A stretch of DNA of 64,000 nucleotides from Glandiceps talaboti. Lineage: Eukaryota; Hemichordata; Enteropneusta; Spengelidae. The stretch covers positions 12,474,546 to 12,538,545 of the forward strand of contig NC_135557.1 in assembly GCF_964340395.1 (NCBI RefSeq), written 5' to 3'. The notes beneath the pieces were generated by a model. It had not been told where the DNA came from. It searched no databases and saw nothing but the letters and a program-made list of their open reading frames with translations. Within the stretch, counting starts at the first letter, position 1. Each line of letters opens with the position of its first letter. Positions 8,457-59,208 of this stretch are shown in pieces. Made by a program: the position numbers and the translations under genes.

Positions 8457-11365
8457 TTACTGAGTTGGTAGAATTTGTCTCTGGCTGTTTGGCATCAACT
8501 TGTCAAAGAAGAACTCTAAAAACTTGGTAGCCTGCAACAAAGGAATAAAAGGCATAGTGAGTGAACATTACATATTTTTTGAAATACACAGATCATAAAT
8601 GTAAGTGTTGAGGAATTTATAAATCTTCTGGTATAGGTTACCTTACTTATCTCAGAAAGATTGGACCTACTTATTTGAAAATCAAAATAATTTGATTAAT
8701 AATTTTCTCAAACTTGAAAGCTTAGTTCTTTTCAAAATCATAACTTGTTTATTTGACAGTTTATGGTAACCATCTCATTTTTAAGGAAATTGTCACTCTC
8801 TCACTTTCCAATGTAGTTAACATAATATTCCATGGCAATTCTGAAATATTCCATGGATAAAATTTACATCATTTTGTTCGAAATTTGACTCTTTATTTAT
8901 GGTAACCATTTCGTTCAATCATTTACTTTCCTATCGAGTTAACACAGTATTTAGTGGCAATTTTGAAATATTACATGGATAAAATTTACATCATCTTGTT
9001 CTCTATTTTTTTAAAAATCTGTTTGGTAAACCCTCCCTTTTCTTTCTTCCTAATTTTCACAAAGCATTGGTTGAAGTTGAAGTTTCCTAGATTAGCACAA
9101 TTTCAAATTTGCGACTTATTTCTGAGGTGCATAGAATGTTAAAAACAAATTTATGTACTGGCAACATTTTGTAATTGTGAAAGCCTCAATGACAGCAGAA
9201 AAAAGGAAAAAATTGGCAATTTCCCTGGTTTGCAATACAAATAAATTACATCAACAATGAAAGAAAACCTACATAAAAAGCACAATCACTGAAACAGATG
9301 AAACTGAATTTGACTAGAACTACCTATCAATATAATTCTACTACATTTTGGTGAAATAATTACTAGTTATATATATACAGATACAAAATAGCTATACACA
9401 TTTCAATAGATATTAGTGGTTGTCATGGGAAAGTAAGAACAACCGATAGGTTTGTTTGTTGTAATTAGTGTACTCACCTGTGTTGTATCTTTGGGTCGCA
9501 TAATAAGTTTACCATATTTTGACAGCAATAATTCTCCTTGGAATGGACTATTCATGTAAAAGATCAAATCAATCAAAATTCAATTTATTGAGGTCATATT
9601 TACTTCACTCACTATAATCATATCAGTATGTTTTGACTTTATAGACAAACACATGCACTTACTGTCAAATCTATCTCAGTATGGTGAAACAAAAGTCTAA
9701 ATACAGTACACATTATCTTGCCTTTGGTGTTTCACTCATAAGACAAGACATGTCTTACACATATTCAGACAAACTTCAAGTACAAAAGAAACAATTATAA
9801 ATATACAAAAATGTAGGTGCTGCGCACAGTGGGGTTGTAGAAATAGTCAAGTTACCATGCTGATTATCAGTAGGAAAGTAACCAATGTTTAAAACATCAC
9901 ATTCCATGAAACACTGAGCCATCATCATTTCTACTATATTATAATTGAGGAAAACTCAGATGTTTCAGAAGAAACACTCTCACAAAGCTAGAATCCACAT
10001 ACATTTAGTATCAGTGTGGTAAAGTATGTACACATCTTTATGTACATATTTCAGCCAATGATTACAAGATAAATGAACACAAGAATGATTCAGTGTTATC
10101 CTTGTAACAGACATTTAGCAGTAGTAATCCAAGACCTTTGGATTCAAATACGGTATACTGCAATATTACAATACATAATTATTTTCGTATAACACGAGAC
10201 ACAAGTCAAGAAGTGCAGTGTAATTCTCAGTACCTGAAATAGAATATTTCTCCCTCTACGCACATTATAAAATAACAAACATTCAATTTCTTGGTTCACA
10301 CCATAACTTTCGCTCCATCCGCTTCACATGCATTACTAATAGTATAGGCACGCATGAAAATAAGTCGACCTTCTTGCTCTAGTTTGACCCTCTATAGGAT
10401 GAGGCAAAAAGCTATTGCAGGTACTGAGAATTTACGCACACTGGTTTCCCCTCTAACTAATGTCTATGATGTAACCATCAAATTTCTCCTCAATGTTATT
10501 TTCATACAAGTTGTCGTACTCGAACTTCAGCGAAAATAAAAGTGCATTTTCAATTTCCAGTTATACAGAATTGGGTTTACAGAATTGAGAACGGCATAAT
10601 ACCAGTAGTAATGAGAATACAGTACACTGACCTCATTAAGATTTGATCAAAGCATGTTACAGCATTATCTCTTTCAATTGCTATTGCAATACTTGGACCT
10701 TGACACAAAACTTCAGCCTGTGGGTAAAACACAAAACAACTCTTTAAGAAATCACTAATTTAAGATAGTAACACATATAACATTAACAGAATAAACAGTT
10801 GGTTTGTGGGTATAAAGTAAAATCATGTTGGAGAAATGTTGAATTTCTATTACTAAATAGTAACACATCTAACACAGTAAACAGTTGGTCTGTGAGTAAA
10901 AAGTTAAATCATGTTGGATAAATGGTTAATTTCTAATTTTACTATTTAACTAGCTAATATCAATCCTACAATATGTGCTGGAATCACGATGAGTTCAGAG
11001 CATGGTAGATTTTACATATTACATACACATGTAGACATCAAACTACGGTATTCGGATTTGGAATTCCTTGGCAATGAACAGTCTTTGTAATCAACACAAA
11101 GTATATTAGTGCACAACACTTACCAAGTGTGGATTTGGTGTTGGTGTTATTGACACAAAGTGTTGTGCCTGCAACAGTGTGAACCACACCATTCTCAAAC
11201 CAACGATATGAAACCCTAGTGACACAAAGGCATCAATTAACTGTATATAGCCTGGTTTACGACTCCTAGTTAGTGATATCTGTAACTGTGGCATGAACAC
11301 TACACAGTTGGTTTGACAAATAGAACTGTGTATTGGCAGTAAGTCTGTTGAACTTGTACTCGTAC
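8457..11365 (-). CDS. DNAAF8: DNAAF8 coding exons 17-20: degenerate NDPK-like module 5 and C-terminus
   Basis: Exons 11365-11124, 10717-10632, 9547-9478 and 8531-8457. PGYIQLIDAFVSLGFHIVGL is the first helix-strand unit. AEVLCQGPSIAIAIERDNAV is the GPVVAMVWEGENAV equivalent. SPFQGELLLSKYGKLIMRP then TKFLEFFFDKLMP occupies the nucleotide and terminal helix part without a histidine. The protein ends QRQILPTQ followed by TAA (8459-8457). Confidence 0.82.
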
Positions 11366-14300
11366 CTGAAACATATAAACAAAGTATACACATTATTACA
11401 TAATTATGTGCTAATGATCAATTACATCAATGTCAATGCATACCTAGTGGTATTTGCAATGCAGAGCAATACCATTAAAATTGTTGTATAATTTACATAC
11501 CAGTATGCAAATTATTTGCAAATGAAGGTCATCTAGAAATTTTTCCTTGTACACAAAATTATAAAATTGCACGATCACATGTTGTGCTTTGTACAGAATT
11601 TTGTTGTTTCAGATTTATAAACATGTCATAACAGGTCATCATGACAACCAAGTGAAAGTGTACTAGTAGATAATCATAGGTATTTACAGTCTTGTGGTGT
11701 TTTCTCCTGCACTTGCAAGAGGTCAACAAACCTTATGAAAATATGACTGTAGAGTGCACTGCAAGCACTCATGCAAATACCTCAAGAACACCATCACTTG
11801 CACTTCTATCTCATAGGATTTCTATCCTATTATTACAGTACAGTAAGAGACTGTACATTCTCCACGGCAGCATTATTGAAATCCTCTCCTTCCATTCAGG
11901 ATGTATTAAACCATAGACCCTCCACAAACTCAATAAATTGTCTGAACTTTATTTACAATACAACTGAAGAGTCTAAATAAAATTTCAGAAAGCACTTCTC
12001 TGAAAAGTCTGACTGTATATTTTGGGAACTACATCTTAATTTAGGGGTATGACTCTAACAACAATCCACTCACTAATTCAAGTCTAAGCAAGTTATTACA
12101 GTCCAAGGTCCTTGACAGGATTTACTTGTATCACTTCTGTAGTCAATTTACTTAACGTTGTTTTTATACAAATTTCACTTTCATTTCTCTTTTGACAGTT
12201 TGATATTGATATTGGTATCAATAAAGATTTCTAAGTTTTGGCTAAAACACAATATTTGGTTGGCGGTGAAGGCATTTTGAATGTCACTACAATTTCTTAG
12301 CAATCTGAAATGTCATCTTACCCATACTCCTAGTAGTTGTACACATTGAGGCCAACCCATCAGTTGATATACCATTAGTAGAAGATACACTGTCTTTAAC
12401 CACATACGTGTACTTAGAATCTATTCCATTGTCTATGATAGGATCATTGGCTGGACATGTCAACTGTAGGGAAATACAGGTTGTGTTATGAAAGTCAATA
12501 TCTGACAATAGACTGTCTTTAACCACATAGGTGTACTTCGAATTTATTTCATACGATCATTGGCAGGAATAAACGTGCACCATGATTGGATGATATGATG
12601 CTGGACACCAATTGTGGAAGTGATTTTATTTTGAAATGAAACAGTATTTTTAGATATTCGAAAATGAACTTGTAGTCACGTGTGATTTATATAAATATGT
12701 TATTTGTCAAATAGTGTTCCACATCTTGCTACTCGAGGTCTTTGCTCCAGTCACCTTTGGATCTCGTTATTATTGGAAAAATTACTCCTCACAACAAGAT
12801 ATAGTACTTATACAGCATCACTATGTACATGAATAAGTACTGGCTTTTGATGCTCTTTGCTGATATGGTGATGACTAAACAGATGATAAATTGATACATC
12901 TTATATGAAGTCAAATTGTCATTTTAATTGAGTTTCACAAACAATTTGTGTTTCATACAAAAGTTTTCCCTGAATATACATGTAAATCAGTGATATCACA
13001 CGCTTTGTCATTTCCATCTCTATTGTAAAAATGAAAATTATATTTTATTTTCAAAACGCTAATCATTTTCATATGAAATTAAAATATTAAGTTTCCCCAA
13101 TACAATAGCTTACATTATGATCCCTAACATTACCCTGATTTTGGTAGCATCCATATCCATGTCATTAGATGTATAAATATTGGCTGATTTGGGTAAAAGC
13201 CATGTTATTATACCGGGTATGTATAAATATTGACTGATTTAGGTAACAGCCATGTTATTATATACCGGGTACATGTATGTATAAATATTGACTGATTTGA
13301 GTAACAGCCACGTTATTATATGTATGACTATGAATATTCTTACCTTCTCAGCTCTCAGATCTGGAGTTTCTTGACAACACAGACCGGTTGAAAAGAACAA
13401 CTTCTGTTCCAAAACTGACCCACTATAACTACAGGAAGCTGACAGTGAAAGAAGGAAACGCATTATAAAATTACAAGTATATTGATGACTGCTCATATAC
13501 ATACAGTTGTCATGGATCGCTGATAAAACCATTAGAGTTTTTTCACGCAGATTAACAAGCATGAACACATTATTACACCAATACTAAAGGAATTACACTG
13601 GGAGCAAGTACAATACAGCATTTATTCCAAAGTTCTCTCCTAACCACCTATAACGTGTTACATGGTCTTTCACTGTCTCACTTATTAGACACTACTCGGA
13701 AGAAGCCTGATCTCCGCACACATTGGTCATTGAACAAATAGTTACCATTTACGTGTACAGCTGTCTTTACTTGTCAATGAACAATGTTTCATTTCACAGC
13801 CAATCAAACGATGCACATACATTAACTATAAAAGGTGATGCTACGTCACAAAGTTACAATTTTCGACACCATGGAAATAGAGAACAGTCCCAGTAACTTT
13901 CGATGTTTTAAATCTTACCATGTAATCCATTGTTGATTGGATCAACACCAAACAAACTCCTCCACAAAAACTGGTTGACTTTCTTGGCTTCCTGTGGATT
14001 CACTGGGCCAACTACATCCAGTAACTTCTTTATTGCATTCTCCCGTTGTAAACATAGTAGTAACACAGGACCTGACGTCAGGTAGTCTAAATGCATGTTA
14101 CACAACACTTCATTCTGAAAACAAAGAACAATTCATTCAGCATGTCATATAAATACCCTGTCAATAATCAATATGTCAATTTCTGTTGCAAATTAAACAA
14201 GTTCACTCTTCTAAGGAAGTTTGTGGGTGTCTTGTTGTGTCCCATATTAATCCTGTGTTTCCCAACTTGTAGTTTTTTTGTTTACATACAAACAACAACA

Positions 14301-17300
14301 ACAATAACAACAACAACAACAACAACAAGAGTTGTGTGACAGTCACATACATTTCACAATAATGGGCATTCACAATCAAACCTAATCTAAATACAAATGA
14401 TGCTACTAATACTGATGATAGATTATTTTCCCAATAATTTTCTGTTCACCTGATTGTGAGGAAAATATGAATGACCTAAGAAACCCTTTCCCTACAAGGT
14501 GCTAGATGAGTAGTGACAACCCCTTAGATCATACATATTTTCCAGCTGAATGAAGACAAATATTGAGATTATTATAATTATACCTTCTGAAGCATAATTT
14601 ATAAGAAATTTGGGAAAATAATGGTGATTTGGAACACATGGACTAATTTTTTTTTTATAACACTGCAGAACCAGTGACGTAGACATGGGTTGTCATGATG
14701 TATAACAACCAGTGCATATGATCCATATTGCTGTTCAAAGACAATATGACTTATAATTTGATGTTGAGGCAAATATTTTTCTTCATTCTGCCAAGGAAAT
14801 ATGAGTGACCTAAAGGGTCTTTGTCACTATGAGTCGATAGACTAGTTATTCCCAATATTTTTATTTATTCAGCCAAGGAAAATGAGTGACCTAAGGGGTC
14901 TTTGTCACTAAGATTAGGTCACAAGTATTTTCCAGCTGAATGAAGAAAAATTTCGACAATAACATAATTATACCAGCACCATTAATATCAAAGAAACATC
15001 AGGGAAAGTAACGGCAATTTTGAAAGTTTTGACTAATATTTCTAATATTTTGAACACAGCACAACCAGTGAGGTGCACTTGTAGATATGCGCTGTGGTGA
15101 CATAGACACACGTTGTGGTGAGTCACCAATACGTAGAACGACCACAGTATATATTCCATATTTTTTGTTCTAAATGGCTTGAGCATTGGTATAATGATTG
15201 GTAATGTTCTGTTTCTCACCGTCTTGTCTTCAGCTGGTACTAAGACCTTGGCATCATCTCTAGACAGTACTTCCAGTCTCATCCCAATGACACTGAACCC
15301 TTCCTGACAGATCCGTTTCAAAAGTTTAGCAAGGTGACGATGTAAGGCATCTGGTTTGATCACTGCCACTGTAGTCAGAGGTCTTGGACCTGTAGATTTA
15401 TAATGGTTGATAGATTAGTACTTTTTTTAATGTACATACATGTATAATTACTTAGTACATATTCAGAGTTTCCTCTCAGGTTTTTTGAAATAGTGCAAAT
15501 TTAGCAATGAATGAAGAATTTCAAAATGCACATTCATTACAATTTTAATGTTCCCTCTAATTTATTTTAAATAGTGCAAATTTACAACTGATTGAAGAAA
15601 TTCAAAATGTACTTTATTACTTAAAGTAGCCATATGGATGAGGATTTGATATTATTTTGGATTTTTAATTTATAAAACAATTTTATCATGGCTTCCTACT
15701 TGAAAAGCAAATGTGAAACAACATATGTCAAGTCCTATTTTGTAACTCAATAAATTGCAAAGTATTAATAACTGTTTAAAATGTTTGTTATTGTATGTAC
15801 AATAACAAACTTTTTACACATATTTTAGAATGTTGTTGTGTACTGAGTTACAATCACAAACTTGGTCAGTGTTGTTTCACTCTGATTTTTCATGTACAAA
15901 GCCATGATAAAATTATTTTATAGATTAAAAATCCAAAATAAGTATTAAATCCTCATCCATATGACCACTTTAAGTTCTGGGTTCAATTTCATGTTTTTTT
16001 TTAAATTGTGCAAATTTACCACTGATTGAAGAAATTCAAAATATATATTACACGTATTACTTAGGTTAAGGGTTATCTTTCAAAGTGACAGTAAAAGATT
16101 AAAACAGTTGATTTTTGAGGTGTATTTCATGTTAACTGTGTTTGTACTCACCCGACAACATTGTATCATATATAGACTCTTCAATATACACAATATCTGG
16201 TGCTCTCTGTCGCCCACCATGTTTTTTGCTTTTATTGCCTTTACTAGGGAGTCCATCATCATTTGTCCAGTAGTCTGAGGGGCTTCCTGGTGTGCCTGGG
16301 GTCACCATATGACCTGTCCTGACTGGTGGCAGGTACTTCAAGTTTGGTCGCATAGTTGGGTCTGCATATAACTCTCTGTCATGGAAAAACATGGCAGCCT
16401 GCCGATATGCAACCTCAGCTGAGGGCGACATTAGCGTAGTTAGCGGGCTACTACGAAGTGTCGTCTTCAGCCCAGTGACAGATTTGGGAATGTTCAGTAC
16501 GGAATGTAATTGCTGGAATGCGTTAATTCCTCGGAAAACACAAATCAGAGTTGGGGAGGACATCAGAGAATGGATACTGGTCTGCCATAATCTGTCTCCG
16601 ACTTCAAAAGGTGTAATTTCTTTAGCTTGGATGGTGGTTAATGCTGGTAACCATTTGATACCAAGTAATTCAAGGCCATCTGTGTTATCACTAGGGCAAG
16701 GCTGTTAAAGGAATACATTGTACAGTAAAGATTAAACAATGTCAAACTCCTTGATTTTCATAAAGAGTGTTGCATTTGACTAATTCTGTTATTTTTATTT
16801 CCTTCCAAACATAGTTTCGGTATTCTACATGTACAGCAAATATTCATTACATCTGACCTATATAACCCCCCCCCACACACACACACACACACACACACCC
16901 ACCTTCCATCCACATCATTACTGTCTCTGTCTCCCCCCCCCCCCCTCTATTTTTCTTTCTACAAATCTGTACTTCTCGCCATCTACTATTACCAATGCAC
17001 TTCATGGTCAAGACACGGTCAGAGTGATACCGGTATTCTACCTTCCTTCCTTCCCCTGCCTCTCCCATTTGCTTTCTATAATTTTTACATCTCATCTTCA
17101 TCATCAGTGAAAGTCTTTTCTAATGTGTTACTAAAACACTTCATAGTAGGAACACTGGTCAGTGTGATATTTCCTCTCCATTCCTCCCTTCCCCTGCCCT
17201 TCTCATTTTCTTTCTACAATCTTTACTTCTCACCTTTGCCGCCCATGAACGTTTTTCTGATGCATTACTAATACACTTCATAGTACGGACACTGATCAAT

Positions 17301-18653
17301 GTGATACGATATTCTCTCACTCACTCTTCCTTCCTCGCACCCCACCCGTCAATCCCTTTTCTTTCTTCAAATCTTAAGTTCTTACCTTCTCTATCAGTGC
17401 AAGAGTTTTTCCTAGCGTATTACCGATACACTTCATGGTAGGGACACCAGACAGAGTGATAACGACGACTTGTTCGAGTTCGGCATTGGAGTAGAAATGA
17501 CCCGTTGCTGGCACACTAGACCTTGTTTCATGGTGAGGAGTTCTAGTGAAATCACCACCTAGACACTGTAAGAGGTTATCACTGTACGCAGCAGCATGGA
17601 AACAGTGGCATGACTTCACCTGGTCATCATAGCTGATCTGAACCTCACGTAATAAACCTAAAACAAAGACAAACTCAAAGGTTTATGTAACGTTGGCAAC
17701 ATGGAAGAAAATAGTCATACTAGCGGAGAGGGGATCTGGCATCAAGAACTTCATTTTGCATTCTTAAAACAAACTTTAGAAAATGTTCAAGCCTTCAATG
17801 ATAACAGGTTCTGTATTTACAACTGAGATGTTGATAAGTTGATTAAAATGTACTGCTTATGTGATATACAGTACTGTGTTTAGTCATAGACAAGGAAGTA
17901 TTTCCTGTCTATGGTTAGCATTTTAATGTACTAACCATGTTTTTTATATTGTATCGATTGTAGTGGTGTCGCCATTACAATTTTCAATTTTCAGCTTGCG
18001 TTACATCATATATATGTGTGTCAATGTCACACTTGTGAACAGTTGATTGAGGAGGGGGAGGGGGGTGATTTTGGCCTAAACGAACTTCAGTTATTGATAT
18101 AGCTTGTGTGACATTATGCTATTGTCCCTTACTAAGCAACACAAGTTTCCTCATCAAAGATTCAGAAGTAGTAATTGCAAGCAAGAGCCTTCTGGTATTT
18201 TAATTAATGTAATGCCATCACCATTTGAATAAAGTACATTGTTGCTTACCAAGCAATGACAGTTTCACCATCAAAGCTTCAATGAGGGAGTGTACTTGGT
18301 GTGTGGCATTCTCTTTCCTAAGTAGGAGTACAGTACCAGGTCTTGGAGGTTGCCTTGAACTACTGGGTCCACTCTCTAACTGTTCATGGATTGCATCGTC
18401 TAGATTCATGGGTGACGTTGGTGTATGGAATGCTATCGGACAAAATGCTGCTAGCTGTGTACCCTGGATACCTGCAAACAAATAGTTAAGTTTACTACAT
18501 GTAAATGCAGTCACCCCTACCATTATGAAATATTTGGTTTAACCCACTCCTTTTCTGCAGTACAGGTGAAACCATTAAAATGCAGAGGGATGAGATTAAG
18601 TAAAGGATGAGTTAATATTTGGTATAAACCACGTTTTCAGTTGTACAGGTGTA

Positions 18654-18698
<45 letters not shown>

Positions 18699-21600
18699 CG
18701 TACATGTATGTCTTTTTCTTATATTTCACTAATTTTGTTGTACATACGGAAGCATGTATGACAACCTAGTGATCACACCCTACAACTTGTACAAGTATTA
18801 GTAAAGTACATGTATCCAATGAATTTACAAGTTGTCAAATGTAACAGTCTGGATCATTTATTGGTATGTTGATTACACACTGATATCTATCCAGTGTACA
18901 AAGTACCATCAATGACAAGTAGACAGGTGATAAGACAGAACCCCATGACATGCGAGTGCAAGTGTGGAGTACTCAGGATATTTCCACAAGAGCCTGCAGT
19001 GATTTCTGTGGTCATACTTGCACGAGTTCACTGCAAGCACAGGGGCAAATACCCAAGTACCCACACTTAAACTTGCATGGCGTGGGGTTCTTTTATTACC
19101 AATACTAGTATTACAAAATCCAAAACAGCAAATTCCCTACATATCATACTGTATATATCATGTATGATCACACACTTTCATGTGCAAGAAATGATTCAGC
19201 TCTTATTACATACTATTTGCATACAGGTATGCAATAAATGTTTTTCTGTAGTGCACTGCAGTGCAAATACCACTAGTATGAGTGCATATGAATGCAAGTA
19301 ATCACCAGTATATGTATGTTGTACTAATTCATCTAATTTAAAAGGACTGAAATGTTTTCAGTTAAGGTTGGGCACATGTATTTTTCAGATATGCAAAACC
19401 TGTAAGAAACATTACTTGAACTTATTACTTGCTAGATTGTTATACATGTATTACATCACGATTAACATGTGATGAATAATGTACATGTATGCTATACATA
19501 CTCTATAATCTACAGTCATTTGCATGTATTGTACATGTATATAGTCAATGTACTGTTCCAAATTCTTGCCCAGTGTCGATGTTTTTACTAAAGAAAATTG
19601 TAACTTACCCATGTTGTTAGCTCTTTTCACACTCATTCTCATCCGCCGTATTCCTCGTACCTGGAACCCTCTGTTATGACACACACTGAGCACAAAACCA
19701 ATATATTGAGTTGGTATCAATGGTGATATCACTAGGAATACATCGCCACATGTTGTCGCAGTAAGCGTTGCTGGTGGACGTCGATTTGGTAACAACAACG
19801 AGAGATCGGACTCGGCAGATTGCTCATCAGAATATGAACCTTTCTTGGCTTTCTTTTTGTTTGGACTTTGCTGCATGCGTTTGTTCTTTGACGAAACCAT
19901 GGGATTGGTAACACCAACATCAATAACACCATTCGGTGGTACACGTCCTCCAAACCATCGTGCAAGCTCTGAGTTTATTCTTGCTGGATTGCGTGGACAG
20001 AACAACCACACCTCATCTCTTGATTCACCACCAAACTTTGCACACAGTGACTGTGGATCGGTGCGTCTGGCTAGCTGAGGATCTGACGGACCAACAGCAT
20101 CCAACCACTTACTTCTAGCACCGTGTCCTCGTAATGCTAACGCTACAATTGCACCGATAGTGTTCATTGTATTCAAATCGCTGTCTGACTGGTTGTTTTT
20201 ATCACCACCAAGTTTTGGATCATTCACACTGACTGTCGAGTGGGTACTTGGTATGAAGTTTCCTGTCGGGTACAGTAGCCGAATGCCACATAGATCCAGG
20301 CCTTCCTGCAGGACTCCGTATAACACACCTACCATGGCATATGGATCTCGGTAGATATTCTTGTAGATTAAACTTAGCGTATTTTGTATATCAGAGTTAG
20401 TGTTGTACTCTTGGCAAACATCTTGATCTAGAACGTTTTCTTCACATTCCACTGTCTGCCAGAAAAAGCCGACAGATGAACCAAATACATTTGACACAGC
20501 ATTAGGGTCACGATTTATTGCGACAAATGTTGACAACGGTTTGGAAGTCACAGCAGGCAGTGGTGGCATGTATGATCCATCTTTCTGGACACCACTGCTA
20601 TCGCATGTTGTAGATTTCAACATTTGACCTTTGCTACCAACCTTGTATGCAAATGAGCTCTGTAACCATGGGCAAACACTGTTCAGGACATTCGTAGATA
20701 GAAACTTGGCAACACTTTTTTGAAAAGGTGAGCAATCCTTGAACTCGTCACGAACTCGCGATTTCTTCTTTGCTGGCGTGTTCTTAATTGCTGCTTTATC
20801 TCTTGGGGTGATGGCAACAGCCAGAGAAAGAAACTTCTCCTGCCAGAGTTGTTGTAAACCAATGACATAGAACGGTGCTTCTGTTGATGGCAACTCGTTA
20901 TTTGCGTTACTTGATGGTGCCGCAACATCATGTTGTAGGAAGTCGTAATTCTCAGGCACTAAGGACAGTAACCATGTTAAGAGTGTAGCGTACGTAGCTG
21001 ATATACCAGTAGTGTTGTCAACATTTCTATTTCCACTACTACGATGTGATATCACCTCACCATTACTAGATATGTGGATATTCAACATAATACATTCCTG
21101 TTCTGCTTTCAATATTGGAGGGAGTGTTTGTGGTGCAGGTTCATACGATGCTTCCTGTTAAATAGAAAGATTAATACACATCAACTATCTCCCTCTCATA
21201 TGGGACACAACACGTAGACTGGCTGCACAGAATCAATGTCACAGTGGTAAACACGATACATTTTGCATGGCTTCACAAAATGGTAAACGCAATACATGTA
21301 CATTTAGAGTGGCCTCACAGAATAAAAATAAATGTAAACATGATACATGTGGAGTTGCATCATCAAATATTAGTAATGATTAAATTTGATTTTTTTTCGT
21401 GGTTAATAACACCGATTTTTCTTTTTGTTTTTCTCTACCTCATTCACTAGTCTTGTTCCCTTTCCTTCTATTCAATTCCTTTTATCTAAATGAAAACAGT
21501 TCACACCTTATAATTACCAAGGTATGAGTTTCATTCACAGTTTACCTACTACATGTATCTCATCTTCTGGGAGATTATCACAACAAATATAAATGCATTT

Positions 21601-24600
21601 GCATACTGATTATTTATACTCAGCAAAGGGTCTTTATTCTGTCAAGAAAGATGGTGAATATTCAGTCGAGGGAAAGACTGGGTAAAGAAAAACAATAGAA
21701 AATTCAGAGTAAAAAAAAATCAAATCAAATCAAATCATTGCTAACATTCACTGCGCCCTGTGCTACAACTTACAAAAATATCTTTTAAAAATCTTACCAA
21801 ATCAAAAACTGTTGGCGTATTATCTGCACATCTGTGTTTTCCTGAAGCTGAACATCTGGGTCTCAACGTCTCTAACTGTCTCTGTAGTCGTAATCTTGTC
21901 TGTCTTTCTTGTTCTCGTTGTTCACGTACTTTCTTGGCAGCCTCAAGTTTTCTTTGCTTTTCTTCTTCTTTGGTTTCAGTTTGTAATGTCTGTTTGGACG
22001 GTTCAGGTTTGGACGGCTCAGGGATGGAAACTGCTATGTCAGGTGACGAGTCAGCTTTCTACACATGCACGGAAAGTAAACAATTGGTAAATATTACCAA
22101 ATTAATCATTTTCTAGTAAAATTCCCTTTATGATCACTACAGTCGTTAACAATGATTTTGTCACTAATTCTACTTTACTACCAAACCAGAGTGACAATAG
22201 AGTTTCAATTAGGTAGCATGATGTTGTTTATGTCACATTCTTGTTAGAATAGAAATTGCATAAAACAAAATAAAGACACTGATAGTGCGTAAGCATATAC
22301 AATGATACATTTGATCTCGCTTTGAACACAAATCAACATTACTGTCGGATAGAACAACAAACATATAGTCAAGAAAGTAAATACTTACTTTCTCTGTAAT
22401 ATCATTCTGGACGGATTTCACTTCATTTTGATTCTGCTGGGCATATACTTCACTCTTCCTTATCTTTCTGACTTTCCTATTAATGGGGCAAAAGTAATTC
22501 TTGATTATCAATCTCCATGGAAACATAGCCTGTGGTCTACTCATTTTTGAAAACATACGCTCAACTGTCAATGTGCTTCCTTTGAATCCATAAAATTCCA
22601 CTCTTTACATTTGTATATTACTCCATCATCTTGCACTCTCAACTCTCATTTTTAGCAGAAACCATTTCAACTTATTACGATACTACAAATTGATCAAATA
22701 GGCCTCTAATTTAAATGATTGTATAATTAATGGTAGTTTAACAATTTACAACAAGTAAATCGTTGAATGTCTGATAAAAAAAATTGCAACCCAGTTACAG
22801 CTAGAATGTATTTTAAATGTTTAATATCGAGATACACCAAAAGTAGACACACTGACCTGGTTGGTTTATATGGTGTGGGTTTCTTGGAGGTGGCCCACAT
22901 GTCTTCTGTAGGTACTTTACCACTGGTGATGGTATCTCTGATATGACGTCTTTGTTCATGCCATGTTGATAAGTCATCTTCACTGCCATCATCTGATAAA
23001 TCATCACTACAACAAATACACATGTATCAGCATTATTACCTAATGTATCAGTGATAATTTGAACTCATACTACGAGGTATTATGCACTGCTGCAGTGCAT
23101 TAAGGAAAACATTCCTGCATACATGTATGCAAATTATATGCAAATTAGGTCATGCTTGTTAGTTGTACACAAAAGCATGTGATCACATAGTGCCATTTTT
23201 GGGGAAAATTTGCTGTTTTGGTTAAAATATGTAATATTAACAGAACCCCATTCGGTGTGAGTTCCATAGTGGATACTCGTGGATATTTGTACTTGTGCTT
23301 GCATTGTTTTCTATTGCACTTTCACTACACTCATTAAAGTATGGCTACAGAAAACGCTGCAAACACTCATGCAAATACCTTGAGTAGGCCACACTTCTAG
23401 CTGAGCTGTGCATCATGCGGTTCTGTCATATTCTTACTATACCTTGTATCTTTTTGTATTCCCAGTATTCTCTGTATGGCATCTTTATTGGCCGCCTGTG
23501 AAAATATCAACCAAGTCAATAACAAGTCAATATTAACTACATATATATCATTATCTTTATTGATTGATGTTATAGACTGTAAGATATATGATGACGCTTA
23601 GCTCTCATTGGCCTATAGTCTTAGCTACCCAGACTCTTGGTGTTGGGGGTGCAATTATTTATAGCAATATCACAGATTCTTGCTAGGGATGGAGCCCCAA
23701 ACGACGAGAGTCTGGGTAACCGAGACTATCATTGGCCTAGACTATCATTAGCCTAGACTATCATTGGCCAAGACTATCACTGGCCTAGACCATCATTGGC
23801 CTAGACTATCATTGTCCCAGACTATCATTGGCCTTGCTATTAAAGGGGTTGGCTGATGAAAGTGCCCATCACAGTGTACCTAACAGACTGTTGGTGTTGT
23901 TGTTGCTATGTCAACATATACAACATTTCTTACATTCACCAACCACACACAAATCTTAACAAACTTTTACCCAACCTTTGGAAAAAATGTCTCAGTTGTG
24001 TTGAAAGTCAGTTTGCTATTACAACATCTGAACTTCATTTTGTTTTCATTTTGATTTATTTTCTTAAGCACATTCATATGTACATGAGTACTATAGCTAC
24101 CACTGTCTATGCTGTTAATAATTACATGTATTAATTACTGATAGATCATCTTAAAGGTGCTCTCTCAGATTAAAACTTGACACTTTCAAGTATATTTCAG
24201 TGTTTTTATTAAGGGCAGTAAGTGAAGGTAAAATCTCCCTGAGTTCCCAAGGTATTTTACCAGGGTTCTCTACCAAAATTATAGTACATCATGGTATGGA
24301 AAGCTGAATACAAATTTTACTAGATTTCCCTCCTCTGTTACCAGGGTTCCCAGACCTTAGTAAAAACACTGTATTTCAATATGATGTGACTCGATAAATA
24401 TTTGCTTGGTCTACACCACAATACCTGTTCTTGTTTCTTTTTGTCGAAATCCCTTAGGTCCAAAAATATGGTTTCCTTTTCTTCTGTCTTTTCTGACTTG
24501 GGTTGTTGACGTTGTTGTTTTTGTTGTTGTTGTTGTTGTTGTTGTTGTTGCAGCTGCTGCTGTTGTTGTTGTACTAAGACATGTGGAGAAGTTCCAGTAG

Positions 24601-27600
24601 AAGCTCTTGATACCCTGTAATCAAACAAGATATGAAATTATAGCAAAGTGTCAATCAATCTCATTGTTGCAATGAGACATCTTGTCACTGTACTTCATAT
24701 TTTGAAAACCAAACTGATCATTTCACTGTACATGTATGTATTTGATCATACATTGAAACAAGAACATCACTGGCAAGTCAGTCAAATCTATGATTTCCCT
24801 AGTAGTCATTTCATCCCACGTAAATTTTTTCTACTTAGGATACCAACAAAATTATGGCAAACAGAGAAGTGTACAAATTTCATCAAATACCCTTGATGCT
24901 GCTTGGTTTCTGACTCATTGGGAAAGGCACTGAATACTACATATCTATCATCAATGCCATGAATTGAGGCATTGCAGAACTCTTGAAACAGTTGAGTCAT
25001 TTTGCCAAGAGATGCAAGCCAAAGACAATGATACATAGTCTGTAAAATACTGACAATCGTGCCACGCTATCAGTGGTTAAGAGGTCTGATACAGTGATAG
25101 GGCTGAACAACACGACATATCTTACAAGTTACAGTCTAAGGCAATGAATGCTCAGTAAAAAAAAAAAAATTCTGAGAGATACACATTGTTTGTCTTCCAA
25201 GTTTCTTACCTGTGTCTTTGTGTATCACCACTATCACCTGATGCCAGGGATGATGTGGTGTCTTCAGTCCATGCTAGTCTTCTAGTCCTCCCAGCTCCAC
25301 CAGACTGACCTAACTGTTCTTGTGTTAGAGAACCACCAGACTGCTGTATGCAGAGTTGAGCTAGCTTGTCCATTAATGTCTGACTCTCAGAACTCTCTAC
25401 GTAAAACATAAAATAGGTTGACATTAACAATTACATATATTATCTATGTAAACAAAAAAATATCTACATGTAATTGTACAGTACTCAATTATAACACTGC
25501 TTACGAATTACAGAAATTAAAAATGAATGATGGCCAACGTTTCAGGTAATTCTGTTTAAATTTCATTTTTCTATTACAAGAGAAAGTACTTTTTTATGTA
25601 CATATACAATATATTTTTACATCAATGATGATATAAAGTGGCACTTGTGACTAGCTTCATGTGTGTTTACAACTATTTCCTCCTGAAAGTGAAAATACTT
25701 GCATCAAACCTTGATTAAACTAGAGTATCATATTATTAGTGTGGAGACTTGTCTTCTACAAGTACATGTACACTCAATAACATTACATGTACTATTGTCG
25801 GCTGGCACTGTGTTAGAACACTTGAGTTGACTGCATACATTGTGTACATGGACAGTACATTTGTATTTGTACATGAATAGTACAGCTTTCATCTGCATTA
25901 ATGTATTTATAATTAATAACTCGCATCACTGGATCATACATACATGTACATGTAGTGACATGTAAGTTACATGATCTTAATACAATGTTTAAGTTCAGTC
26001 AATTAAAAAAAAGTCATGGCTAAGTATGCTTCAGTAAATAGAATATTGTGACAGTGAGTACCTTTGGAATAGCCACCAAACATACATGTACATGTATGCC
26101 CCCAAATGGTTGTACAAAGTCAGCTGTGCCTCTTTAATGAGATACATGTACAATGTAGATCACATTATCACAAACTATACAATGTACTTGCAATGAATCA
26201 TCCAAGAATTGTACACTGTCACCTTGCTTATAAACTACTGTACGGGTGTAAAGTGTTACATTGTTTACACCAGGAATACATGTATACAATGTATGACATA
26301 AAAAATACAGAAGTTGGGTATGGTTGGGATGGTACAGTGTCCCCCCCCCCCAAAAAAAAAAAAAAAAAAAAGAAAAAAAAAAGAAGAAAAAGTAAATCAG
26401 GTCACAGCCATGTACCTGTACATGTATGTACCATGGTACATATTATAAGTTCCAATACAAAATGTACAAATGTACTTCAGCAAAATAAATTTGCACCATG
26501 CCCCACTTTGATAGGAAGTACATGTCTGAGTCAGCAATTATGTGAATTACATGTACATTGTGTACAAGTGGAGTGTATACATCAGAGCTTTGTATACATG
26601 TATGTGTGTATAACAATAGCTGAAAAGGTCATATAAACTCCACTCATCTTTATGAATGCTTAGACTCAACGACCCCTTTCATATCTATTGTTATCAGAGA
26701 TGGCAAACAACAATAGGCTTTGTTAAAAAGTTCTCAGTCCTTGAATGAGAAGGAAATTACGCTGCTGAAGGAAATTTAACATGACGATTACATGAAGTAT
26801 TTAAAGTAATCATGACTTGACAATATGCAACATATATATGTAACGGTACATGTGTATAACATATACATGTACAGGGAATAATTTTGCACTGATAGGAACA
26901 TTTGTAAATGAGTTGAGATTGTTTCAAGAAGTTATTTCTCACCATTGGCATGGAATACACACATTTATGTTGAAGAACTGATCTGAATACATTGGCAGAT
27001 GTTATGCAATACAAAATAACACAAAATGCCACCATGATGGACATATAATGCCAACTTTTCATTTCAAATTATTCCATGACATTTCTCCTCAATCTCATTT
27101 CTTTACAGAAAAAAATATGACTCAGCATTTTTTGCAAAAAAATTAAGTAGAAAAAAACCAAACAGATCTTTGTTTATCTACATGTACAAATGAAACTACT
27201 GTTTCTTAGCATTTTTAGAATCAAGTATTTTTAAAGGACTACATGACTTGCTGTTATGAATACATGATTTGCAAACTCTACTGCCCTCCTTCCTTTAGGT
27301 ACTATGGTTCCACACCAAGGTTGAGTTGCAATGTAAATATGCAATTTCTACCAGATTTCCCAACTTTATTACAGGAGTCCTGAACTACAATAAAAATGCT
27401 AATAGTCCCCATATAAATCTATAAGGCATAACAGCCACTGTGCCCCTTTAAGCTAATTTGACTCGCCACTGGGGCACAGAATTTCTAGTGACACACCAAA
27501 ATTTGGTGTTCCCCTACATGTACATGTATCTCCTTACTCACAAGAAATGCCATTTTTTTTAAAATTTTGACTCACAACAACAAAATTGGCTATCATTTGA

Positions 27601-29815
27601 GAGCAGACTGATAACAGCTCTACTTCATTATCCTTTTAGCACTCACTACATCATATATATACCTGTGTATGAGTCACAACTTACCTGGTCTAACAGAGAC
27701 ACTATCTCCAACTGATGTATACAACGAAGAATCCTTTCCTTCACCCAGTGTTTCAGAACTGCCTTTCTCCTGGTCTATCACACCTAACAATTCGTCAATA
27801 TCAATGTCTGCAATCTTTTGCATAGATAACTGAGGGGTTTCAGTTGGTAGGAAGCTAGAATAAATTGAGTTCTGTAAGACTTCTTTCTTAGACATCTCGT
27901 CAGGTAAATTCTCACGTAAAGATTTTACGTTTTCGTTTTTGTCAATCTTAAGGTCTTTTTCTTGACTCAAGTCTTTGTCCTCATCAATAGATTCCTTATC
28001 ATCTGATAAGTGCGCATCAGTAGATGTCCCCATACTGTGATACACTTTCTTTTCATTCTTCTTGGCATCTTCTTCTGCCAGTTTAACAACATCATCCCAA
28101 CTCTGTGTGAACTCCTCATCATTGACGCTGTCATTGTCAAGGTGATTTATCTCAATGTTATTATGATCCAAGGAATTGAGTGTGTGATCATCTTGCTGGT
28201 TTTGGGAAGGCAACAACACATTTTGCCACGTCACTGGTGATAATCTGTCATCCTCATACGTGTCTGGATCAGATGGTGACCTCAAGGAACGGTTGAAAAT
28301 TGAAACTTCTTCATCAGAACTTGCCTGAAACAAAAAATTTGAAAATAAATTCAATTTGTATTTTACAGTCTGCTTACATAAAGGAAAATCACACAATGTC
28401 TCACAAGCTCAATATAAGCAAACATCGTTCGTTTAGAACACCCCCACCCCACCCCTAAACAAACGTTCACAAGTGCGACATGACACGTTTATATATGATG
28501 TAAACAATGATGCAAAATGTATCAGTGACACCACTACGATTTGTGCAATATAAAAACATGATAGTAAACATGAATTTCCAATCTTATGAAAAAATTTACC
28601 GAGATGATGGTAAACATATCAAAATACTACTGGAAACCCAGCACTATATGTCACATATTAGAAGTATATTTTTATCATCATATCAACATCTCAGTAGTAA
28701 ATACAGAAGATGTTATTGAAGGTATGAAAGTCTTCGAAATTTGGTTAGAAGTGCAAAAATGAAGTTGAGCAATCACAAAGATGCCAGACCCCCTCCCCTC
28801 TAAATGAACAAAAGTACACTTATTGAGCTTTTTTGTCATTGTGCAATCATCCCTAATATCAGTTCAACCTAATGACTTCTAATACAGAATGTACAAAAAT
28901 GGTAAACATATATACTAAATGTTTACCTTTTATATCCTCTTCTCCTACAACTGTGTGTACCGTAAAAATGTATATACACTGAAAATACAGTACATTTTGC
29001 ACTTCCTTCATTGACAAATTTGCATATGTGACACTATTGTTACAGACCTTATATTTTTGACAGACTACATGTACATGTGGAGAACAAATTGAACCCCTCC
29101 CCCTCCCCACCCCCACCCCCAAATCTGACTTCTTCATTCTTTTGCAAAATTATTCATGAACATTCATGGGAAGCAATAAGTCACACTTTTAATACACACA
29201 ATTATTTTCAAGAGAAACGTCATGTAACTAGCATCGACAAACTGTGGTGCAACATCACAACGAAAATGTTATTGCATAATTATATATATGTATTCACATT
29301 AATGTACTCTACATAAAAATGTGTACGTTCCATGTGCATCAAATCATGAACACACTTGTATTTTTACAAAATTTGTTGTTTCAGAGAGAAACACACATAC
29401 ATGTACCGATAATAAATTAGAACCCTATGATACATGTACAGTCAAGAGTGAGTACTATTAAGGGTATTTGCAACCGTGCTTGCATTGGTTTCTGCTGCAC
29501 TTACGGCTGCAGAAAATGCTGCACGCTTTCATGTAGACACCCTGAGTATTACTTTTAATTTGCCACACTAGTAACTTACTCATGCCATTGAAGTTTTTTC
29601 AACACGACTTTCAAAAATAAAAAAAAAGGAATATTTCTATTTATACTTACGTCTGACAATTCAAAATCAATGGACGGGAGACTGGCTTGGACTTCTGCAA
29701 ATATAGTATCTAGTTGTGGTTTCAATCCAGTTCCTTCTGGTAAGGCAACAAACTCAAAACTGTGATTACTTCTTCCTGTATGCTCCTTCTTGGGTTGCTT
29801 TCTTGAGTTCGACAT
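8457..29815 (-). CDS. DNAAF8: DNAAF8-like (C16orf71/Daap1) protein with five NDPK-like modules
   Basis: Axonemal dynein assembly factor; the vertebrate protein sits in cytoplasmic dynein-assembly foci of ciliated cells. I read 20 coding exons: 29815-29651, 28324-27685, 25396-25210, 24614-24425, 23495-23443, 23006-22857, 22476-22389, 22058-21798, 21154-19609, 18471-18250, 17657-17386, 16701-16152, 15389-15220, 14114-13919, 13438-13344, 12463-12322, 11365-11124, 10717-10632, 9547-9478, 8531-8457. All junctions are GT-AG, phases agree, and they sum to 5,400 bp (1,799 aa plus TAA). The N-terminal third carries short blocks matching my memory of human C16orf71: SLPSIDFELSD then DEEVSIFNRSL; LSMQKIADIDIDELL (~221); LMDKLAQLCIQQS (~276); ETIFLDLR (~378). 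After a charged helix (~515-545) come NDPK-like modules at about 787-982, 1047-1200, 1230-1370, 1442-1595 and 1675-1790. The ~520-residue human protein, as I recall it, ends before these. Identity is strong; the exact start and a few junctions are inference. Confidence 0.9.
10768..10940. repeat. Two-copy ~90-bp tandem duplication in a DNAAF8 intron
   Basis: AGTAACACATATAAC...AAACAGTTGGTTTGTG is followed by AGTAACACATCTAAC...AAACAGTTGGTCTGTG, each continuing into AAATCATGTTGGA. Both are intronic. Confidence 0.7.
11430..11810 (-). mobile_element. Dispersed repeat family B, copy 2
   Basis: Opens with the inverted family end (CTAGTGGTATTTGCAATGCA), then CAGTATGCAAATTATTTGCA, ACGATCACATGTTGTGCTTT and the inner block GCACTGCAAGCACTCATGCA. 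Intronic in DNAAF8. Confidence 0.55.
12500..12575 (-). repeat. Decayed partial copy of DNAAF8 exon 16
   Basis: GACTGTCTTTAACCACATAG and GATCATTGGCAGGA repeat pieces of the exon at 12375-12455 (ACTGTCTTTAACCACATACG and GATCATTGGCTGGA). The copy lies in the intron just upstream of the exon in gene sense and has an internal deletion. Confidence 0.75.
13168..13322. repeat. ~53-bp tandem repeat, 3 units, intronic
   Basis: Three copies of TGTATAAATATTGACTGATT followed by GGTAACAGCCATGTTATTAT and ACCGGGTA. It lies immediately inside the intron after DNAAF8 exon 15. Confidence 0.75.
13344..15389 (-). CDS. DNAAF8: DNAAF8 coding exons 13-15: NDPK-like module 4 with catalytic His
   Basis: Exons 15389-15220, 14114-13919 and 13438-13344. 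Starts VAVIKPDALHRHLAKLLKRI (Lys at about 1453, equivalent to K12 of human NME1), then EGFSVIGMRLEVL, YLTSGPVLLLCLQRENAIKK, WRSLFG (Arg about 1550, R105 equivalent) and NNGLH|ASCSYSGSVLEQKLFF. The last segment aligns residue for residue with NIIHGSDSVESAEREISLWF, giving Asn about 1560 and the phosphoacceptor His about 1563. The equivalents of Y52 and R88 look lost. Kinase activity is possible but not assured. The acceptor at 13439 (CAG|CTTCC) is the one that restores both reading frame and alignment. Confidence 0.85.
14450..15190. repeat. Dispersed repeat family D, two adjacent diverged copies
   Basis: TTTTCCAGCTGAATGAAGA followed by AACCAGTGACGTAGACATGG occurs at 14540-14700. The pair recurs at about 14925-15110 (AACCAGTGAGGTGCACTTG) and again at 35210-35390. 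The blocks GACCTAAGGGGTCTTTGTCA and CCTAAAGGGTCTTTGTCA lie between the copies. The second copy runs up to DNAAF8 exon 13. Confidence 0.6.
15621..15973. mobile_element. MITE family A, full copy 1 (TTAA ends, near-palindromic)
   Basis: Starts TTAAAGTAGCCATATGGATG and ends with the complement (CATCCATATGACCACTTTAA). The arms stay complementary for ~170 bp, including CCAAAATA and AGCCATGATAAAAT on the far side, so the 353-bp element can fold into one long hairpin. TTAA at both outer edges suggests the TTAA target duplication used by piggyBac-type transposases. Non-coding; intronic in DNAAF8. Confidence 0.85.
16152..16701 (-). CDS. DNAAF8: DNAAF8 coding exon 12: NDPK-like module 3
   Basis: GLELLGIKWLPALTTIQAKE then SLMSSPTLICVFRGINAFQQ follow the NDPK GFxxxxLKxL ... 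MSSGPVVAMVWEGENAV pattern. The catalytic region is not canonical (AAMFFHDREL near residue 1365). A Lys/Gly/Ser-rich linker leads into exon 13. Acceptor and donor (TCGG|gtgagt) are both canonical. Confidence 0.82.
16867..16945. repeat. (CA)n microsatellite with poly-C tracts
   Basis: About 16 CA dinucleotides flanked by C runs at about 16867 and 16935. It lies in the intron between DNAAF8 exons 11 and 12, and apparent frames here are low complexity. Confidence 0.95.
16990..17320 (-). repeat. Three degenerate copies of the DNAAF8 exon 11 3' end
   Basis: The exon end contains CACTTCATGGTAGGGACACC (plus strand, from 17429). Diverged copies with the same flanks start at 17274 (CACTTCATAGTACGGACACT), 17136 (CACTTCATAGTAGGAACACT) and 16998 (CACTTCATGGTCAAGACACG). 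Spacing is 155, 138 and 138 bp. At least one copy keeps a donor-like AAAG|gtgag at about 17231. All lie downstream of the real donor in gene sense. Confidence 0.85.
17386..18471 (-). CDS. DNAAF8: DNAAF8 coding exons 10-11: module 2 end and module 3 start
   Basis: Exons 18471-18250 and 17657-17386. PGTVLLLRKENATHQVHSLI matches the NDPK strand before the nucleotide loop (GPVVAMVWEGENAV type). CFHAAAYSDNLLQCL places a histidine (about H1188) where the catalytic His would be, but flanking residues differ from HGSDS. Module 3 begins QVVVITLSGVPTMKCIGNTL. The 3' end of exon 11 is copied three times in the following intron (see repeat at 16990-17320). Confidence 0.8.
17950..18125 (-). mobile_element. 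MITE family E, partial copy
   Basis: TGTCAATGTCACACTTGTGA, then AAACGAACTTCAG and TAGCTTGTGTGACATTATGC match the ends and inner blocks of the copies at 1570 and 28385. It is incomplete. Confidence 0.5.
18655..18697. repeat. (TG)n microsatellite
   Basis: About 20 uninterrupted TG dinucleotides in a DNAAF8 intron. Confidence 0.97.
18935..19320 (+). mobile_element. Dispersed repeat family B, copy 3
   Basis: Longest copy seen: AGAACCCCATGACATGCGAG ... TTGCATGGCGTGGGGTTCTT forms an inner inverted pair. It is followed by AAAACAGCAAATTCC, ATGATCACACACTTTCATGT and TTTGCATACAGGTATGCAAT. The order matches 7690-8030. Intronic in DNAAF8. Confidence 0.7.
19609..21154 (-). CDS. DNAAF8: DNAAF8 coding exon 9: NDPK-like module 1 and start of module 2
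   Basis: A single 1,546-bp exon. Module 1 runs from STFVAINRDPNAV (beta-1 strand) through VGVLYGVLQEGLDLCGIRLL to AIVALALRGHGARSKWLDAV, then GPSDPQLARRTDPQSLCAKF and a final helix NSELARWF. This is the NDPK order, but FCPRNP replaces the catalytic His loop, so the module is probably inactive. A basic linker (KKKAKKG) leads to module 2, beginning CGDVFLVISPLIPTQYIGFV and HNRGFQVRGIRRMRM. Earlier in the exon, ATYATLLTWLLSLVPENYDF is unassigned. Confidence 0.85.
21180..21365. repeat. ~40-bp imperfect tandem repeat, about 4 units
   Basis: Units share GGTAAACACGATACAT, a TGGCTTCACA or TGGCCTCACAGAAT block and spacing of about 40-45 bp. Intronic. Confidence 0.6.
23070..23440 (-). mobile_element. 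Dispersed repeat family B, copy 4
   Basis: Inverted relative to 18935: GTGCATTAAGGAAAACATTC, TGTATGCAAATTATATGCAA, GCATGTGATCACATAG, ACAGAACCCCATTCGGTGTG, then GCTGCAAACACTCATGCAAA and GCATCATGCGGTTCTGTC. It ends just before DNAAF8 exon 5. Confidence 0.65.
23728..23835. repeat. 16-bp tandem repeat, about 7 units
   Basis: Units of ATTGGCCTAGACTATC with small changes (ATTAGCC, CTGGCC, ATTGTCC). Intronic. Confidence 0.85.
24425..24614 (-). CDS. DNAAF8: DNAAF8 coding exon 4 with polyglutamine tract
   Basis: Encodes a glutamine run (about 21 Q interrupted by one L, then KQQRQQ) from a GTT/GTTGCAGC-type triplet repeat on the plus strand. KETIFLDLRDFDKKKQEQ follows, a block conserved with human ESPTIFIDLRQ. 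The repeat is a likely length polymorphism inside a disordered linker. Confidence 0.85.
27685..29815 (-). CDS. DNAAF8: DNAAF8 coding exons 1-2: conserved N-terminal part
   Basis: Exon 1 opens with MSNSRKQPKKE and ends ELSD. Exon 2 starts ASSDEEVSIFNRSL, so the join reads ELSDASSDEEVSIFNR, which parallels LSDYGEEELFIFQR in the human protein as I remember it. The rest of exon 2 is acidic, Ser/Asp/Asn-rich and probably disordered, apart from the conserved LSMQKIADIDIDELLGVI near its end. The ATG at 29815 is the first in frame after a plausible 5'UTR acceptor at about 29858. Confidence 0.88.
28385..28855. mobile_element. MITE family E, copy 2
   Basis: Left end CACACAATGTCTCACAAGCT, right end GAGCTTTTTTGTCATTGTGC. 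The interior shares TTTATATATGATGTAA and TTTGGTTAGAAGTGCA with the copy at 1570-2002. It sits in DNAAF8 intron 1, about 60 bp upstream (gene sense) of exon 2. Confidence 0.7.
29350..29565 (-). mobile_element. Dispersed repeat family B, fragment
   Basis: AGAACCCTATGATACATG, GGGTATTTGCAACCGTGCTT and GCTGCACGCTTTCATGTAGA match the inner part of the other copies, in the orientation of 23070-23440. Confidence 0.55.
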
Positions 29816-31960: not shown

Positions 31961-32462
31961 AACACTAGACATAAACTTGATATCCTTTATCGAATATCAA
32001 GATCATTTGCATAAAGCAGCTTTTGGGTCATGATTTCTCATTGAGCCAGACAGGGTTGGAGATGATCTGATACCACAATGGCATCCAGACCAAGTTTCCC
32101 TTGATGTAGATGTAAATGTTACTACATAGACCCTCCATGGGTCTAGGGTTGGTTACTATGTGCAGCTAAACCTCGCTATTGTCAACAAATTGAACCTTCA
32201 AGTTCAACCAATCAAACTCTGTCTTATTTATGAATAATAGAAGTAATTGAGTTAACACGATTTCATCTGACCCTGTGATGGAGTGATGTGAAATCCTCTA
32301 CCCTAAAACATCAAATCTTTTGAACTTCAGAAATGAGAGTTCAAAAATCTTGCTTGCCATCCATGTTGTTCATTATGTCACCTCTAGAGGGCACTATACA
32401 CGTCATCACAATTTTTACTCTTCTTTAGATTACAATGTATTGAAGATAATGAAAAGGCTGCC

Positions 32463-57959: not shown

Positions 57960-59208
57960 GTTGATATAATAAATAAGCTATTGAATGGACATTATACTCA
58001 CAGTAGGGTGAAGTTTCTGACAGCTATTTTATTCTCGAGTGTTCACACACGATATGATTACAGGTAAACAAAGGTAACACTAACATGTACACCAACAGTA
58101 TAGGTTGAATACTGGTTTAGATATTTTGCACCTGTTTGTCCATTCCTTTCAACAGATGTCATTTCTATATTTTGTTGTACATTTTATTGTCTGTCACTTA
58201 TGTCTGTGCTTCTCTTTGTATGTTCTCATCTAGCCTGTTCACGGCACTTATGGTATATTTCGTTTAATCTCCTGTATCTTCGCCTGTGACTAGATTTGCA
58301 AAAAAAAGCTGATAATACTTGTTTGAAAATCATAATGCATAATTGCCCAATCAACGTTTTCGTCACTCGTAGTTGTCCCATTATAATTATTTAGATGAAG
58401 TGATATGCAGATGAAGATATAAATGCAACTGAGATGGACAAGGCTCTATACATGTAAGGGTAATGTGAACTCATTTGTCTGTGTGTCTTTCTGCATACCA
58501 ATTATGCGTTGGGATTTTCAAACCGTATTATCAGCTTTTCGCAACAGGGAACTTTCAATCCAGACTGAGCATGGGATTATCTGTGGTTATCGTAATACCT
58601 AATCTGGAGCTACCGATAAAATTAACCTCCCACAATGGTCAGGGTAACTATGAATTGATTATTTGTGGTTACAAACAATGCAACAATATTGTTTACAATA
58701 TCAATTTGAGTAGTATTTATTATCGCATTTCCCATGATGCAACATTCAACATGGCAGGTTTGCAAGTTCCCTATTAAAATCACAAGCGGAGGTATGCCGG
58801 GGAGACTATGGTACATTTGTCAGATGAGGATGCAATACACTGTTTACGTCACTATAACAGTTGGGGTTCACTGATTGGATGAACAACATTTTGTGCTGAT
58901 TGATGAGGGACTTTGACCAGGCGTGGTTTAGATAGAAACCACGTTGGCATCGAGACAAATGCTGCCTGTACATCCTCTGCAACCACAGAATCTCTTTGTA
59001 CTGCCACGATAAACAGATTACAAGGCCAAGCAATGTAATAACTTGCAGCAATCTCCCACTCTTTGCCTGGTATTCCTTATGTTCTGTTTTTTTTTATTTC
59101 TTATACTTTATTTTCATTTTTTCCTGTATCTATTCCGTGTATATGTAATATAGTTATTTTAATTTTATCGCAATTGCCCGAAACAAACATTTTAAGAAAA
59201 TGACATAA
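57960..59208. other. Spacer, no gene recognised
   Basis: A 100-codon frame at 58475-58777 has no recognisable family. Otherwise AT-rich non-coding. Confidence 0.45.

Follow-up and report, generated by a model that had tools for sequence, protein, structure and literature searches.

A gene that is most likely an orthologue of DNAAF8 (C16orf71/Daap1) lies on the minus strand of a 64,000-nucleotide stretch of the genome of the hemichordate Glandiceps talaboti (NCBI RefSeq assembly GCF_964340395.1, contig NC_135557.1, positions 12,474,546 to 12,538,545; hereafter the window). As judged from sequence comparison, its predicted protein joins an N-terminal half that carries DNAAF8 blocks to a C-terminal array that is best read as five nucleoside diphosphate kinase (NDPK)-like modules. 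Modules 1, 4 and 5 can be assigned firmly to this class, and modules 2 and 3 are probable members of it. We favour, with fair confidence, the reading that this is the long form of DNAAF8 and that its array serves as a non-catalytic docking platform in outer-arm assembly.

An earlier note on this DNA had claimed that the human protein lacks the NDPK modules and that the mammalian form is a truncation. Its central claim has been in print for non-mammalian vertebrates since 2020. Lee et al. (2020) report a long C-terminal NDK extension that is present in every orthologue from non-mammalian vertebrates and absent from mammals, describe DUF4701 and the NDK extension in one protein, and suggest that DUF4701 is vertebrate-specific (PMC7785291). 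Human DNAAF8 is described as largely disordered, with 520 residues and one domain of unknown function (PMC12633730), and it lacks the NDPK region, in agreement with the earlier note. The mammalian form is indeed best read as a truncation, although the idea is not new in principle, given the long non-mammalian form already reported (PMC7785291). In the accessible portion of the open-licence literature, we found no paper on invertebrate DNAAF8 or on more than one NDK module in DNAAF8. What is new here is the presence of five modules instead of one, the decay of their active sites, their affinity to NME7, and a probable non-vertebrate orthologue, an origin that the missing match to the Pfam family DAAP1 suggests.

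Gene model and likely orthology

The spliced frame was rebuilt from the raw DNA, which gave a coding sequence of 5,400 nt with continuous phases and one terminal stop. This reproduced the 20-exon gene with matching phases of the earlier note at the same residue count (1,799), and GT-AG borders were found in 19 of the 19 introns. The span given in that note (8457..21154) is correct for exons 9–20 but not for the whole gene, as exons 1–8 are located at 21798–29815. Codon usage was scored by a leave-one-out procedure in which each exon was judged by usage trained on the remaining ones, no window was longer than 120 codons, and stop codons were left uncounted in windows longer than 25 codons. All 20 exons exceeded the mean of the intron windows. 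The weaker exons, with scores equalled or reached by some of 300 intron windows, are exon 16 (24 windows), exon 18 (17), exon 7 (11), exon 17 (9), exon 15 (8), and exon 19 (7). The splice model gains support at exons 9–12, 13–15 and 17–18 because NDPK alignments span those junctions; the joins 12–13, 15–16, 16–17, 18–19, 19–20, and those among exons 3–8 are based on splice sites, phase, and coding score. Exons 8 and 9 join in phase 0 at GT-AG sites, and the frame stays open across them. Short tandem duplications were also observed in the introns of this gene at 17043–17306 and 13169–13320. The former has a 138-bp unit in 1.9 copies and, by eye, copies the 3′ portion of exon 11, which lies next to it.

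Orthology to DNAAF8 is proposed because of two colinear N-terminal blocks and an ANKS3-like neighbouring gene. In BLASTP comparisons with human DNAAF8, block 1 shows 44% identity (E 0.014) and block 2 has an E-value of 0.008. Both blocks are in the same order as in the human protein, and the colinear pair was equalled by none of 2,000 local shuffles of the human sequence. The human query covers all 505 profile positions of DAAP1 (PF15773), the Pfam family for DNAAF8, at 850.9 bits; a match to this family was treated as a detection aid and not as a defining trait. The DNAAF8-type blocks of the earlier note were thus recovered. Within block 2, the stretch DIDIDELLGVI (27776–27808, minus strand, residues 228–238) aligns with human WDLDDILQSL, with IDELLGVI placed opposite LDDILQSL by BLASTP. 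This stretch is a possible counterpart of the LD motif described in C16orf71 (PMC7703752).

The neighbouring gene is divergent from DNAAF8 and has Pfam matches to Ank at 33393–33779 and 34634–34954 and to SAM at 39051–39989 (plus strand). Among PDB entries, the SAM domain of ANKS3 (4nj8) comes closest to the SAM piece, with 44.0 bits. A cattle gene list has the order NUDT16L1, ANKS3, DNAAF8, ZNF500, in which ANKS3 and DNAAF8 are adjacent and orientation is not given (PMC12075139). The Glandiceps gene resembles human DNAAF8 in the order of the two blocks and, as judged from the cattle list, in this neighbour. In another cattle paper DNAAF8 is named and ANKS3 is not (PMC12652844), and no paper naming both C16orf71 and ANKS3 was found in the open-licence literature. 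Within the ANKS3-like gene, a 57-bp unit is present in 7.4 copies at 32601–33033 (plus strand) and is translated as TASSIGQYDCVHAIIARYV repeats. By eye, the unit seems to span an ANKS3 exon end and its GTATGTA donor, which would make the array a series of tandem copies of an exon end and its 5′ splice site.

NDPK-like modules and their active sites

A Pfam search of the 1,799-residue model, which the earlier note had proposed, matched NDK with 106.6 bits in three stretches. When the modules were searched as separate pieces, module 4 (72.2 bits) was the sole one above the curated cut-off of 27 bits; modules 1 (17.0 bits) and 5 (18.7 bits) fell short of that value, and for modules 2 and 3 there was no Pfam NDK match. 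Profile-profile alignment with hhalign used a wide NDPK profile that includes NME5 and NME8 domains and excludes every module of the window protein. The scores of modules 1 to 5 were 65.2, 32.3, 32.0, 132.3 and 57.5, and each was equalled by none of 100 shuffles, with alignments over 123 columns for module 3 and 82 columns for module 2. With a narrow profile built from the NME7 domains and E. coli Ndk, the score of module 3 was again equalled by none of 100 shuffles, while that of module 2, over 44 columns, was equalled by two. After module 4 had been added to the profile, modules 2 and 3 aligned over 133 and 124 columns, respectively, and none of 200 shuffles reached their scores. Against this module-4-containing profile, the scores of five control stretches ranged from 10.7 to 14.7; a sixth (residues 1583–1670, 62.4) was dropped since it overlaps module 4, itself in that profile. 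Structures predicted without an alignment had a mean predicted local distance difference test (pLDDT) score of 32.0 for exon 9 (515 residues) and 32.7 for exon 12 (183 residues). The five NDPK-pattern segments of the earlier note therefore stand for modules 1, 4 and 5 on Pfam, PDB and hhalign evidence, and are probable for modules 2 and 3, where the evidence comes from hhalign with shuffles only.

Residues 579–786 (20531–21154, minus strand, bounds approximate) separate the DNAAF8 part from module 1 and belong to the long exon 9. No relative of this stretch was found in Pfam, NCBIfam or PDB, nor any NDPK signal by hhalign, where its score of 14.7 against the NDPK profile was equalled by 13 of 100 shuffles. 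Its best PDB match is haemoglobin (E 0.52), which was taken as chance.

NME7, also known as FAP67, is a ciliary protein with tandem NDPK domains and provides the best PDB match for modules 1, 4 and 5. For module 4, two-domain NME7 chains were matched at E 8.6e-26 and 4.1e-25, and the best single PDB domain was that of NME7 with 55.6 bits, compared with 45.2 bits for NME5. Module 1 matched FAP67/NME7 at E 2.1e-8 in two stretches, the better of which scored 24.1 bits. Module 5 matched NME7 at E 0.0018 in two weak stretches; in one stretch it also matched 3zto, an NDPK chain with a single domain (E 0.0054). Across the NDPK region, NME9 (chain 8j07_v1) scored 25.6 bits, NME5 39.4 bits, and NME7 82.2 bits. 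A small tree placed module 4 beside domain 2 of NME7 with a support of 0.778, a placement that is only indicative because the branch is very long. Unlike the window protein, NME7 has a DM10 domain together with two NDPK domains, and sits inside the A tubule (PMC13256974). NME8 and NME9 (TXNDC3/TXNDC6) and sea urchin IC1 also carry NDPK modules in an outer-arm dynein setting, but these proteins have an N-terminal thioredoxin domain. In the window protein, Pfam at E-values up to 10 gave NDK only, with neither DM10 nor thioredoxin. Non-mammalian vertebrate DNAAF8 is among the closest known parallels in layout, as it has an N-terminal DNAAF8 region and a long NDK-homologous C-terminal extension in one protein (PMC7785291); the window protein differs from it in having five resolved modules, the best of them nearest to NME7, and no Pfam DAAP1 match. 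The positions of the modules and blocks are given in Table 1.

The active-site set of NME1 consists of Lys12, Tyr52, Phe60, Arg88, Thr94, Arg105, Asn115 and His118. In hhalign and MAFFT alignments, module 4 keeps the equivalents of Lys12, Arg105, Asn115 and His118, with the Lys inside an IKPD motif and an N-x-x-H followed by Ser. It has other residues at the positions of Tyr52, Phe60, Arg88 and Thr94, and Gly119 is changed to Ala. Module 4 is the only one of the five in which the Lys and the His are both aligned. In module 2, hhalign sets a His at the catalytic position and MAFFT does not. The full NDPK catalytic residue set was not found in any module. The earlier note had tied the array to nucleotide handling or phosphotransfer; this link is unsupported because only module 4 aligns the Lys and the His, and four of its other active-site residues are replaced.

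Table 1. Location of the DNAAF8 gene, its parts, and the neighbouring gene in the window
Feature	Position	Strand	Remarks
DNAAF8 orthologue (most likely), whole coding gene	8457..29815	-	20 exons, 1,799 residues; based on frame, phases, splice sites and coding scores
Exons 1–8 (residues 1–578)	21798..29815	-	N-terminal half, which carries the DNAAF8 blocks; charged residues and Gln abundant
N-terminal block 1 (residues 36–67)	28289..29710	-	DTIFAEVQASLPSIDFE...EEVSIFNR; aligns to human 24–56; crosses intron 1
N-terminal block 2 (residues 215–288)	25338..27847	-	LSMQKIADIDIDELL ... LMDKLAQLCIQQS; aligns to human 252–323; crosses intron 2
Exon 9 (residues 579–1093)	19609..21154	-	Holds residues 579–786, all of module 1 and the first part of module 2
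NDPK-like module 1 (residues 787–982)	19943..20530	-	Long insertion; without catalytic Lys or His
Probable NDPK-like module 2 (residues ~1047–1209), exons 9–11	17533..19750	-	Profile alignment only
Probable NDPK-like module 3 (residues ~1236–1370), exons 11–12	16366..17454	-	Profile alignment only
NDPK module 4 (residues 1448–1580), exons 13–15	13389..15372	-	Nearest NME7; Lys (IKPD) and His (NNGLHAS) kept
NDPK-like module 5 (residues ~1660–1790), exons 17–20	8487..11315	-	1685–1750 clear; His region unaligned
ANKS3-like gene, divergent from DNAAF8	32388..43353	+	Pfam exons at 33393–39989; outer bounds by eye

Proposed role of the array and competing explanations

The likeliest function of the array would be that of a docking scaffold rather than an enzyme. 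In Xenopus, Daap1 co-purifies with Dnai2, Dnai1, Dnah9 and Nme9, its knockdown leads to severe outer arm loss, and an N-terminal part without NDK is sufficient for localisation to dynein assembly bodies, retention there, and behaviour in fluorescence recovery after photobleaching (PMC7785291). Human DNAAF8 also localises to dynein assembly bodies (PMC7785291). By extension from Xenopus, the N-terminal part of the Glandiceps protein would place and hold it in cytoplasmic dynein assembly bodies. The decayed NDPK folds could then offer binding surfaces for the outer-arm subunits DNAI1/DNAI2 and for the NDPK-bearing NME8/NME9, and this binding would act while the outer arm is being assembled. We liken such a docking role to that of NME7 domain B, which has no catalytic activity and yet is required for binding (PMC13256974). 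Module 4 may bind nucleotide or carry phosphohistidine, probably with no nucleoside diphosphate kinase turnover. Mammals would have lost the array by truncation past the exon 8 region.

Several points weigh against this picture. On the side of orthology, the best single N-terminal block was equalled by 19 of 2,000 local shuffles of human DNAAF8, and a cruder chain of ungapped segments by 7 of 200. The N-terminal half had no Pfam DAAP1 match at E-values up to 10, a search in which the HMMER filters drop most weak matches. The preference of the SAM piece for ANKS3 is narrow (44.0 bits, compared with 39.4 for BICC1 and 38.9 for ANKS6). The join of exons 8 and 9 is predicted from phase and the published vertebrate architecture. 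On the side of function, the four active-site equivalents kept in module 4 make catalysis or autophosphorylation possible, the Xenopus N-terminal half alone localises normally (PMC7785291), and the partners of the modules are predicted.

Module 4, or the array as a whole, could instead be an active phosphotransfer unit, involved in a local supply of GTP/ATP or in histidine phosphorylation of dynein subunits. We regard this as unlikely. The IKPD Lys and the N-x-x-H with its following Ser speak for it, as do the autophosphorylation of NME7 domain A and the doubt now cast on the long-assumed inactivity of group II members (PMC13256974). His118 is given as an active-site residue of NME1 in the same paper (PMC13256974). 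Yet the counterparts of Tyr52, Phe60, Arg88 and Thr94 and of Gly119 have changed in module 4, no further module aligns the Lys and the His, and the human protein does without the array. A bolder version, to which we give little credence, is that the ancestor of animals already possessed a five-module DNAAF8, which predates vertebrates and arose from an NME7-like ancestor, and that module 4 still forms a phosphohistidine for use on outer-arm dynein subunits during cytoplasmic assembly. That the extension has fewer modules than five, with modules 2 and 3 as chance resemblances, seems improbable to us. In favour of this reading, they have no Pfam match, the narrow-profile score of module 2 was equalled by two shuffles, and the structure models (pLDDT 32.0 and 32.7) are unusable. 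Against chance resemblance, both modules score about 32 on the wide profile with none of 100 shuffles reaching them, in contrast to residues 579–786 (14.7, 13 of 100), and their alignments on that profile extend over 123 columns (module 3) and 82 columns (module 2).

Two further explanations concern the identity of the gene. A short DNAAF8 (exons 1–8) and an adjacent multi-NDPK gene (exons 9–20) might have been fused by the reader of the sequence. This would fit the absence of an NDPK part from human DNAAF8, and no homology alignment spans the junction of exons 8 and 9. That junction, however, is a phase-0 join with GT-AG sites in a single open frame, and among minus-strand frames of at least 40 residues, the only one wholly inside the 643-bp intron 8 has 46 residues. 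We reject this very unlikely reading mainly because the published architecture of non-mammalian vertebrate DNAAF8 is one DUF4701 and NDK protein (PMC7785291). Membership of the protein in the NME7 or NME8 family, and not in DNAAF8, is more improbable still, even though NME7 is the nearest PDB match of module 4, which stands, on its very long branch, beside NME7 domain 2 in the tree (support 0.778). Pfam shows NDK only, with neither a DM10 nor a thioredoxin domain, the number of NDPK domains in NME7 is two (PMC13256974), and the ANKS3-like neighbour and the N-terminal blocks indicate DNAAF8. The long-form DNAAF8 orthologue with a docking array is thus the reading that we retain.

Other features of the window and significance

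Elsewhere in the window, a satellite with 60-bp units in 48.6 copies (92% matches) occupies 59205–62089. A frame of 363 residues for a class A G protein-coupled receptor is found at 62893–63984 on the minus strand (7tm_1, E 2.2e-28). Part of a sulfotransferase lies at 2033–2440 on the plus strand (E 4.4e-7). The observed/expected CpG ratio of the window is 0.494, a value that does not distinguish fish from invertebrates, and the window contained no Rfam match at the gathering score and no tRNA match.

The well-resolved long form suggests that human DNAAF8 is a remnant, and it provides a concrete domain set with which to ask what DNAAF8 holds in outer-arm assembly. Should the bolder reading, with a phosphohistidine in module 4, be true, DNAAF8 would act in assembly by histidine phosphotransfer, and mammals would have lost its enzyme part. 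If the Glandiceps gene is an invertebrate orthologue, it would be necessary to correct the published suggestion of a vertebrate-specific N-terminal domain, and the long form would likely be the ancestral DNAAF8.

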